DNA of 64,000 nt from Herbiconiux gentiana (lineage in GTDB: Bacteria; Actinomycetota; Actinomycetes; Actinomycetales; Microbacteriaceae). The stretch spans positions 62,001-126,000 of the forward strand of contig NZ_JANTEZ010000006.1 of assembly GCF_024978135.1 (NCBI RefSeq), in the 5' to 3' direction. This document shows, in pieces, positions 44,050 to 47,690 of the stretch. Numbering within the stretch: position 1 is the first letter of the stretch; every line of letters starts with the position of its first letter. The translations under genes and the position numbers were made by a program. The notes beneath the pieces are model-generated. The model was not told the DNA's origin. It saw only the letters and a list, made by a program, of their open reading frames with translations, and made no database searches.

Positions 44050-44442
44050 CTACTCGCCGGCCTCGGCCTTGACGGCGGGCTTCGCGGGAGCGGCAGCCTT
44101 GCGGGCGGCCTTCTCTGCAGCCAGCTTCGACGCGGCGGCGACCTGGGCCATGCCCTCTTCGGCCCGCAGCACCTTGGTGCGCATGACGGCCTCGGACAGC
44201 TTCAGCTGACGGTCGAGCTCCTTGGTCGCGTCGGAGGACGCGGTCAGGTTGACGACGGCGTAGATGCCTTCGGTCTTCTTGTTGATCTCGTAGGCCAGGC
44301 GACGCCGGCCCCAGATGTCGACCTTGTCCACGGTGCCACCATCCGTGCGGATGACGTTGAGGAACTTGTCGAGGCTCGGTGCCACGGTGCGCTCGTCGAT
44401 CTCGGGATCGAGGATGACCATGAGTTCGTACTGATGCGTCAC
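44050..44442 (-). CDS. rpsF: 30S ribosomal protein S6
   Basis: 130 residues from GTG at 44442 with a strong GGAGGTGGG upstream. [20 protein letters not shown] and [21 protein letters not shown] are the S6 core; the last 30 residues are an Ala/Lys-rich extension. It opens the rpsF-ssb-rpsR-rplI operon. Confidence 0.97.
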
Positions 44443-44600
44443 AAACCCACCTCCTTCGGACTAGAACGGCCACAGAATCTCTGTGACAGGAGGGTTATGC
44501 ATCTGCCCCGCACCCGCGTGGAGAGTTCCACCAGGCACAGGACAACTTCCATACCCTACCAGAAGCACTGTTCCCGGCGCTCGTGTGTCAGGGTCGGACT

Positions 44601-46511
44601 GTGCCAGAACCCCGTCGCATCGCCCTCGTCTCGCTGCACACGTCCCCGCTCGACGCACCGGGCACGGGCGACGCCGGCGGCATGAACGTGGTGGTCGTGG
44701 GCCTCGCCGACGCGCTCACCGCGGCGGGTCACGACGCGGAGGTGCTCACCCGGGCCAGGTCCGAGGCGGAGGTCGCCGCGACGGAGGCCAGGACGGCGGG
44801 CGGCACGAGGGTCCGCTTCCTCGAGGCGGGGCCCCGGGCATCCGTCGCCAAGGGCGAGCTGCCGGCGCACCTCGGCGCGTTCGGCGAGCGGATGCGCGAG
44901 CTGACGCCGTTCGACCTCGTGCACTCCCACTACTGGCTCTCGGGCGCCGCGGCCCTGCCGGTCGCGCAGGAGTGGGGCGTACCGCACGTGCAGAGCCTGC
45001 ACACCGTGGCGGCGCTGAAGAACGCCCACCTCGCTCCGGGCGACCACCCCGAGCCGGCCGAACGGCTGGCGGTCGAGCGGATGCTCGTGCACGCCTCCGA
45101 GCTCACCCTCGCCCTGAGCGCCGCCGAGCGCGCGGCCGTGCTCGACGCCTACGCTCTCCCCGGCGAGCGGGTGCGCGTGCTCGCGCCGGGTGTGGACACC
45201 TCCCTCTTCCAGCACGCGGCAGCGACCTCCGCCCCCCGCCCCACCCTGCTCGTGCTCGCTCGCGTGCAGCCGTTGAAGGGAATCGACCTGGCCGTCGAGG
45301 CGCTCGCGCTGCTCGGCCCGGAACGCCCCCGCCTCGTGATCGCCGGCGGCACCAGCCCGGGCCATGACGAGTACGCCGAGGCGCTGCGCCGACGCGTGCA
45401 CGAGCTCGGACTCGACGACGACGTCTCCTTCCTCCCGGCGCAGACCCGCGTGCAGACGGCGGCCCTGCTGCGCGAGGCCGCCCTACTGATCGTGCCCTCG
45501 TTCTCGGAGACCTTCGGACTGGTGGCGCTCGAGGCGGCGGCGAGCGGCACCCCGGTCGTCACCACCGGCGCCGGGGGACTGGCCGAATCGGTTCCCGACG
45601 GGGTGAGCGGTGTGCACGTGCGCAGCCGCCGACCCGAGGACTGGGCCGAGGTGATGGGTGGCCTGCTCGCGCAGCCCGGGCAGCTCTCCGCACTCGCCGC
45701 GACGGCGGCACGCTTCGGCCGCGCTCGCGACTGGGCCGAGGCCGCCGCCGACCTCCTCGGGGCGGTCGAGCAGCTCGAGTCCGATCCGACCGCCGTCTTC
45801 GGCGAGCGTCCCGTCTTCCTGCACGCCCATCCCGACGACGAGTCGATCTCGACCGGAGGCACGCTCGCCGCACTGGTGCACGCAGGACGCCGTCCGTCGA
45901 TCCTCACCGGCACCCGCGGCGAACGCGGCGAGGTCGTGCCGGGCGAGCTGCACCCCCTCGAGGGCACCCCGGCGCTGGCGCCCCACCGCGAGGGTGAGCT
46001 GGCCCGGGCACTCGACGAGCTCGGGGGAGTGCCCCAGACATTCCTCGGCGCGTATTCCGATTCCGGAATGGAGTGGGGGGACGACGGCTTCGCGAGGGCG
46101 GCGGCGGATGCTCCCGCCGGGGCCCTGAGCCTGGCTCCGCTCGCCGAGGTGGTCGACGCCGCGGTCGCCGGCATCGAGCGGCTCGCCGTCGGGTCGCCGA
46201 CGAGCGTCGTGAGCTACGACGGGATGGGCGGGTACGGGCATCCCGACCACGTGCGCATGCACGAGACCGCCCGGCTCGTCGCGCTTCACTACGGCGTGCC
46301 TTTCTTCGCGATCGTCGAACCGCGGGTCGACGGCTCCGGCGCCGCCGACGTCGCCATGCCCCTCCTGGGCGAGCCGCTGCGGCGCAAGACGGCGGCGATG
46401 GCCGCCCACGCGACGCAGCTCACCGTCGCGGGCGACCCGCCCCGCTTCACCCTGAGCGGCGGCCAGGTGCACGAGGTGGGCGTCGTCGAGCGGTACCGCC
46501 TGGTCGGCTGA
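44601..46511 (+). CDS. Fusion of MshA-like glycosyltransferase and MshB-like deacetylase (mycothiol synthesis)
   Basis: 636 residues from GTG at 44601 (GTG 44583 is possible). Residues about 1-390 are a GT-B glycosyltransferase of the MshA/GT4 type: HTSPLDAPGTGDAGGMNVVVVGLA near the start (in parts), DLVHSHYWLSG, and the E-x7-E motif SFSETFGLVALEAAASG. Residues about 403-636 are an LmbE/MshB deacetylase: AHPDDES (His410, Asp412, Asp413) and GGYGHPDHVRMHE (His547, His550) are the zinc and base motifs. In mycothiol synthesis MshA joins GlcNAc to inositol phosphate and MshB deacetylates GlcNAc-inositol. ino1 follows 99 bases later, which supports the role. Confidence 0.87.
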   Translation: MPEPRRIALVSLHTSPLDAPGTGDAGGMNVVVVGLADALTAAGHDAEVLTRARSEAEVAATEARTAGGTRVRFLEAGPRASVAKGELPAHLGAFGERMRELTPFDLVHSHYWLSGAAALPVAQEWGVPHVQSLHTVAALKNAHLAPGDHPEPAERLAVERMLVHASELTLALSAAERAAVLDAYALPGERVRVLAPGVDTSLFQHAAATSAPRPTLLVLARVQPLKGIDLAVEALALLGPERPRLVIAGGTSPGHDEYAEALRRRVHELGLDDDVSFLPAQTRVQTAALLREAALLIVPSFSETFGLVALEAAASGTPVVTTGAGGLAESVPDGVSGVHVRSRRPEDWAEVMGGLLAQPGQLSALAATAARFGRARDWAEAAADLLGAVEQLESDPTAVFGERPVFLHAHPDDESISTGGTLAALVHAGRRPSILTGTRGERGEVVPGELHPLEGTPALAPHREGELARALDELGGVPQTFLGAYSDSGMEWGDDGFARAAADAPAGALSLAPLAEVVDAAVAGIERLAVGSPTSVVSYDGMGGYGHPDHVRMHETARLVALHYGVPFFAIVEPRVDGSGAADVAMPLLGEPLRRKTAAMAAHATQLTVAGDPPRFTLSGGQVHEVGVVERYRLVG

Positions 46512-46610: not shown

Positions 46611-47690
46611 ATGAGCATCAAGGTCGCGATCGCGGGCGTCGGTAACTGCGCGAACTCTCTGATCCAGGGGGTGACGTACTACAAGGACGCTGACGAGACC
46701 GAGTCGGTGCCCGGCCTGATGCACGTGCGCTTCGGCCAGTACCACGTGGGCGACATCGAGTTCGTGGCGGCGTTCGACGTCGATGCGGCCAAGGTGGGCG
46801 TCGACCTGGCCGAGGCGATCTGGGCCAGCGAGAACAACACCCTGAAGTTCGCCGACGTCTCCACGACCGGCGTGACCGTGCAGCGCGGCCCCACCCTCGA
46901 CGGGCTCGGCGAGTACTACGTCGAGATGATCGAGGAGTCCGAGGCGGCTCCCGTCGACGTCGCCGCAGCGCTCCGCGAATCGGGCGCCGACGTGCTCGTC
47001 TGCTACCTGCCCGTGGGTTCGGAGGAGGCCGCGAAGTTCTACGCGCAGGCCGCGCTCGACGCCGGGGTAGGCTTCGTCAACGCGATCCCCGTGTTCATCG
47101 CGTCCGATCCCGAGTGGGCGGCGAAGTTCGTCGAGGCCGGGCTGCCGATCGTGGGCGACGACATCAAGAGCCAGGTCGGCGCCACCATCACGCACCGCGT
47201 GCTGGCCCGCCTGCTCGAGAGCCGGGGCATCCAGCTCGACCACACCTACCAGCTGAACGTCGGCGGCAACATGGACTTCAAGAACATGCTGGAGCGCCGC
47301 CGCCTCAACTCGAAGAAGATCTCGAAAACGCAGTCGGTCACCTCGAACATCGACATCGACCTGCCTGCCGGCGACGTGCACATCGGCCCGAGCGACCACG
47401 TGCCGTGGCTCGACGACCGCAAGTTCGCCTTCGTGCGCCTCGAGGGCCACGGTTTCGGCGGCGCCCCGATGAGCCTGGAGTACAAGCTCGAGGTGTGGGA
47501 CTCGCCCAACTCGGCCGGTGTCATCATCGACGCCGTGCGCGCCGCGAAGGTGGCGCTCGACGCCGGCCTCGGCGGCCCGGTGGAGCCGGCCGCCGCCTAC
47601 TTCATGAAATCGCCGCCGGTGCAGCTGCCCGACGACGTGGCGCGCGCCGACCTCGAGGCGTTCATCGCGAAGAACACGCCTGCGGTCTAG
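46611..47690 (+). CDS. ino1: Inositol-3-phosphate synthase
   Basis: 359 residues, the short actinobacterial form. NAD site [16 protein letters not shown]; substrate region [17 protein letters not shown] and [37 protein letters not shown] (in parts) near the end. It makes inositol-3-phosphate from glucose-6-phosphate, the acceptor for MshA and for phosphatidylinositol. The ATG at 46611 directly follows GACGGA, with GGAAAAGG further upstream. Confidence 0.96.

Follow-up and report, generated by a model that had tools for sequence, protein, structure and literature searches.

MshA and MshB, the glycosyltransferase and the deacetylase of mycothiol synthesis, are normally separate proteins. The closest described counterparts of the gene analysed here are MshA of Corynebacterium glutamicum (PDB 3C48/3C4Q; model TIGR03449) and MshB of Mycobacterium tuberculosis (PDB 1Q74/1Q7T/4EWL; model TIGR03445), together with unfused gene pairs in Plantibacter, Agreia, Cryobacterium, Micropruina and others, which belong to the same two families in the same order, usually with a 4-nt overlap, but encode two proteins instead of one. 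In the pathway order given in PMC4360819, a phosphatase acts ahead of MshB, and PMC2834668, from 2010, described the enzyme that dephosphorylates GlcNAc-Ins-P as missing and put forward impC for the role. Within a 64,000-nucleotide stretch of Herbiconiux gentiana DNA (hereafter the window), an MshA-like and an MshB-like enzyme are fused in one open reading frame, and this fusion is real. The enzymes are known, and it is their architecture that is unusual: a literature search covering mostly titles and abstract openings, with few subscription papers, returned no description of an MshA-MshB fusion, and a search of the same scope returned neither a paper treating Herbiconiux together with mycothiol nor a thiol measurement for the genus.

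The initial annotation described a GT4 glycosyltransferase with an E-x7-E motif followed in the same frame by an LmbE/MshB-type deacetylase with AHPDDE and GHPDH motifs, and the open reading frame, the Pfam matches and the motif positions all agree with it (Table 1). Pfam returned Glycos_transf_1 (6.1e-29), Glyco_transf_4 (6.7e-24) and PIG-L (9.6e-17) on the fused protein, in which E-x7-E corresponds to E303/E311, HAHPDDE to residues 408-414 and GHPDH to residues 546-550, and the junction first placed near 45790 falls inside the linker that we delimit as the domain boundary. An alternative GTG start at 44583 would lengthen the protein by 6 aa. The predicted structure of the fused protein, built with 109 alignment rows, reached a mean pLDDT of 94.0 and a pTM of 0.85, and Foldseek against the PDB gave MshA (3c48/3c4q) as the best matches of the fused model and MshB (4ewl/1q7t) as the best for its second half.

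Table 1. Features of the fused locus and its immediate neighbours (positions within the window)
Feature	Coordinates	Strand	Detail
rpsF (ribosomal protein S6)	44050..44442	-	Divergent, upstream of the fused gene; PF01250
Fused MshA-like/MshB-like gene	44601..46511	+	636 aa; GTG start 44601, TGA ends 46511
GT4 half, MshA-like, GT-B fold	44601..45755	+	Residues 1-385; TIGR03449, Foldseek 3c4q, residue map
Linker	45756..45806	+	Residues 386-402; weaker constraint than in the two halves; lacks an in-frame start codon
PIG-L/LmbE deacetylase half, MshB-like	45807..46508	+	Residues 403-636; PF02585 62.1 bits
ino1, inositol-3-phosphate synthase	46611..47690	+	ATG 46611, stop 47690; TIGR03450 642.4 bits vs. 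cut-off 638

A joint frame of this kind might in principle reflect an assembly error, or be translated as two proteins, and it is in keeping with such an explanation that some members of the genus carry separate genes and that the long linker of one fused genome (G093) contains an in-frame ATG. However, the in-frame junction recurs in 6 further genomes of the genus, and in two of them the protein is 84% identical to the window's across its whole length, so the fusion is not a sequencing error; with the junction present in seven genomes and purifying selection on both of its sides (window vs. L052: dN 0.10 and dS 0.44 for the GT half, dN 0.10 and dS 0.53 for the PIG-L half), an assembly error is ruled out. 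Against translation as two proteins, the final in-frame ATG, GTG or TTG ahead of the window's deacetylase domain lies at 45654, inside the GT half and 153 nt before residue 403, so that the deacetylase could not be made alone from an ordinary start codon, and all fused genomes but G093 (six of 7) likewise lack a start codon shortly ahead of the deacetylase domain. We regard an artefactual or doubly translated frame as scarcely credible.

The reading of the N-terminal half as MshA is supported by its residues; the half lies beside the canonical MshA clade and scores below the curated threshold. Among 32 NCBIfam models its best match is TIGR03449 (MshA) at 310.8-312.5 bits, short of the cut-off of 462.5. 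Of 299 Microbacteriaceae genomes, 0 reach that cut-off, whereas 169 have an MshC and 177 an MshD above their own, so the MshA threshold shuts out the whole family and the window's gene has an ordinary score for Microbacteriaceae. Annotation by the TIGR03449 cut-off misses MshA throughout this sample.

Residues kept in the GT half are K84, Y111, H134, T135, R155, R221, K226, E303 and E311, and 13 of 14 positions compared with C. glutamicum MshA (CgMshA) are identical, including E316/E324, R231/K236, K78, Y110, T134 and R154, the one difference being R294, which is Q in the fused protein. CgMshA K78, Y110, T134 and R154 are inositol-phosphate-binding residues; together with H133 they are present in 16/16 rows of the genus. 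K78 and R154 persist in a further 42/42 rows of the clade, whereas two GT4 paralogues from the window's genome do not keep them. The other clade members often carry H at Y110 (24/42) or S at T134 (30/42). The roles of CgMshA R231/K236 and E316/E324 are treated in PMC3898925. In a 121-row tree from a short search, with two distant GT4 rows as the only outgroup, a clade of Microbacteriaceae and Propionibacteriaceae is sister, with support of 95 and 96, to the clade with CgMshA, Streptomyces and others, which places the fused GT half in a separate sister clade. Foldseek matched this half to 3c4q with a TM-score of 0.87-0.88 by target length, consistent with a shared GT-B fold, and equally to sucrose-phosphate synthase 6kih (0.88-0.89).

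For the C-terminal half, the proposed identity as MshB is borne out by active-site residues and not by model score or clade membership. Against TIGR03445 (MshB) it scores 127.8 bits within the whole protein and 131.9 bits when scanned alone, below the cut-off of 224.35, and it is shorter than M. tuberculosis MshB (~234 vs. ~300 aa) as well as C-terminal in a fusion; scanned alone, it scores only 83.8 bits against TIGR03446 (Mca). It shares the PIG-L/LmbE fold, MshB is its best PDB family, and it keeps H410, D412, D413, R463, D487, M490, Y545, H547, D549 and H550. All 10 positions compared with M. tuberculosis MshB are identical, covering its general base and the residues that bind zinc and substrate. 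In a 60-row deacetylase tree, 32 linked or related rows are set apart from MshB plus Mca by a strong branch (99), so that the half lies beside that clade; approximately unbiased (AU) tests rejected neither one clade with MshB (p = 0.53) nor one with Mca (p = 0.45).

A second line of comparison comes from relatives in which the same deacetylase family is extended at its C-terminus by a membrane domain, where the fused protein instead has MshA at its N-terminus. This domain was found in 10 of 13 fetched relatives, which had been picked as controls or because their open frames were long. Its profile matched, by hhalign, a profile built from the small ORFs located after canonical mshB (7 of 9 ORFs aligned; 96.9% probability, E = 1.6e-10), and those ORFs begin in a 4-nt overlap with mshB at 7/9 loci. 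Pfam itself gives DUF6113 little direct support in the extended relatives (13.4 bits vs. a cut-off of 27 in L208, and no match in L217), so the DUF6113 link leans on the profile comparison. The homology of the extra domain to proteins encoded beside canonical mshB gives an independent hint of kinship with MshB rather than Mca. As a separate observation, loci L208-L217 of other Microbacteriaceae (compare L159:2385-2765) encode MshB-like deacetylases with a DUF6113-type C-terminal membrane domain, and DUF6113, for which our literature search found no paper naming it, may serve MshB as a membrane partner.

The inositol-3-phosphate synthase gene that the initial annotation placed next to the fusion starts 99 nt downstream on the same strand and exceeds its own model cut-off. 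The other scanned neighbours comprise dnaB, rplI, ssb, a CCA-adding-type polymerase, DUF6049, murJ, a thioredoxin-reductase-like gene and an MMPL gene, and none of the 9 neighbouring proteins scanned belongs to an inositol-phosphatase family. The assembly (3.85 Mb, 99.84% complete, assigned to the GTDB genus holding Herbiconiux) encodes MshC (548.9 bits) and MshD (237.4 bits), both over their cut-offs and both away from the fusion. It encodes three PIG-L proteins: the fusion, an Mca (346.9 bits, cut-off 277.15) and one in which the PIG-L is attached to another domain. The next glycosyltransferase reaches 144.9 bits with the MshA model. Among the glycosyltransferases and PIG-L proteins scored, no better MshA or MshB candidate emerged, which rules out a separate mshA or mshB elsewhere in the genome and leaves the proposed fusion unrefuted on that point. 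With MshC, MshD and Mca all over cut-off and no better MshA or MshB candidate, the fused protein is the leading candidate for each of the two steps.

Across the family, the distribution of the GT half follows that of the later pathway genes. In 299 Microbacteriaceae genomes, with relatedness ignored, a strong GT match is accompanied by both MshC and MshD in 155 of 159 genomes, and the two occur together in 19 of the 140 genomes that lack such a match; the strong class was defined by manually excluding 13 matches weaker than 1e-52, and 4 of its genomes have no MshC+MshD pair. When every GT match at 1e-40 is counted, again ignoring relatedness, the figures are 162/172 vs. 12/127. These last 12 genomes, such as G020, G053 and G054, have MshC and MshD with no GT match at 1e-40; in G053, and also in G151, the MshA model does find a GT match at 1e-70.

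These data bear on whether the pair might make some other GlcN-linked metabolite, for instance a bacillithiol-like compound, instead of mycothiol. Such a reading could appeal to the fact that neither half passes its mycothiol equivalog cut-off. But the BshA model scores just 61 bits where MshA scores 310.8, the BshB models do not match the fused half at 1e-5, and these far weaker scores led us to reject a BshA/BshB identity; the adjacent ino1, the MshC+MshD co-occurrence and the want of a better MshA candidate in the genome speak against another product as well. We consider one very improbable, and the assignment of the fusion to the mycothiol pathway, predicted from sequence comparison, is well supported.

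A more serious alternative concerns the second half alone. Mca partly replaces MshB in mycobacteria, and here too only the GT half might serve mycothiol, with the fused deacetylase acting on another substrate and Mca performing the MshB step. The position of the deacetylase half outside the MshB+Mca clade and below the MshB cut-off is compatible with this, as is the genome's Mca, which clears its own cut-off and outscores the fused half on the MshB model (168.2 vs. 131.9 bits). Co-occurrence cuts both ways: a strong match of the deacetylase half accompanies MshC in 162 of 171 genomes (relatedness ignored), which speaks for a mycothiol role of the fused-type deacetylase, and 13 of the 128 genomes with no strong match nevertheless have MshC, their matches to this deacetylase being weak throughout. 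The alternative is further weakened by gene order, since among the matches listed (150 rows for each gene, with 132 genomes listed for both) the deacetylase gene lies directly downstream of the mshA-like gene, within 150 nt, in 37 of the 132 genomes, 31 of them outside the genus; in the same genomes and among the same matches, the two genes lie within 5 kb in 8 more and apart in 87. The full set of compared MshB residues, the better score to the MshB than to the Mca model and the domain link to the canonical mshB neighbourhood also oppose it. On balance we think it improbable that Mca does the work of the fused deacetylase.

We consider it highly likely that the fused gene encodes a bifunctional mycothiol-synthesis enzyme, both activities and the product order being predicted, that was born within the genus from an overlapping mshA-mshB pair. 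The N-terminal MshA half would transfer GlcNAc from UDP-GlcNAc to inositol 3-phosphate, the acceptor that the adjoining Ino1 would supply, giving GlcNAc-Ins-P; a separate phosphatase (MshA2) would dephosphorylate this product, the zinc-dependent MshB half would then take off the acetyl group, and MshC and MshD would complete mycothiol. Because the phosphatase must act before the MshB half, the fused protein joins steps 1 and 3, and the phosphatase gap between the two halves that had been pointed out at the start stands: with the inositol-phosphate residues of CgMshA kept, the predicted product of the first half is still GlcNAc-Ins-P. The fusion may hold the step-1 and step-3 enzymes at a 1:1 ratio, and it might also channel GlcNAc-Ins(-P), as the initial annotation proposed; simple stoichiometry or co-localisation of these steps is the modest reading of its architecture. 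A bolder one, which we deem unlikely, is a scaffold in which GlcNAc-Ins-P stays on a complex with a docked phosphatase, or a deacetylase that takes GlcNAc-Ins-P directly, with the order reversed; if either were true, the long-missing MshA2 would be findable through the fused protein.

Under the preferred bifunctional reading, the locus would represent a natural joining of two non-consecutive mycothiol steps, with fused and split versions available for comparison within one genus, and the fused protein could serve as bait for the MshA2 phosphatase. It would also identify the likely MshA and MshB of Microbacteriaceae, a family in which none of the 299 genomes passes the curated MshA model.

Within the genus, the gene is fused in 7/16 genomes and split in 9/16. 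Among the unfused mshA-mshB-like junctions read, an exact 4-nt ATGA or GTGA overlap was present in 41 of 56 (20/27 + 21/29). With such an overlap the two genes are read in different frames, which suggests that joining would need a frame change and not stop loss alone. No fusion was found outside the genus in 47 pairs with the junction read (18 + 29). In the row tables, the other rows spanning both halves among the 299 family genomes came only from G155, G205 and the split G288, and among 396 genomes of the phylum, surveyed by row table rather than junction by junction, only the window's own row did so; these tables can miss fusions because a long-linker fusion appears as pieces, as G093 did. 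In viral contigs, 38 pattern matches included no relative, and a viral fold search returned ordinary glycosyltransferases.

A tree of both halves needs 3-4 state changes between fused and split, and none of 200 bootstrap trees manages with one. A single fusion inherited by all fused members is rejected, the AU test refusing the fused rows as a single clade (p = 0.0188). Judging from these trees, either the fusion arose repeatedly, or an early fusion later split again, a course that includes one fusion followed by several splits. The fusion thus apparently arose inside the genus from an older overlapping mshA-mshB pair, more than once or with later splitting, and the genus would show an overlapping gene pair becoming a fusion, possibly repeatedly.

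Other arrangements of the same genes were also observed. In genus g8 (L028 and L029), an mshA-like gene lies directly before ino1 with no deacetylase gene between them, and in G286 the deacetylase gene is located elsewhere, while in Okibacterium (L097) and Leucobacter (L099 and L141) mshA-like, mshB-like and ino1 genes occur within ~5 kb of one another in other orders and on other strands.
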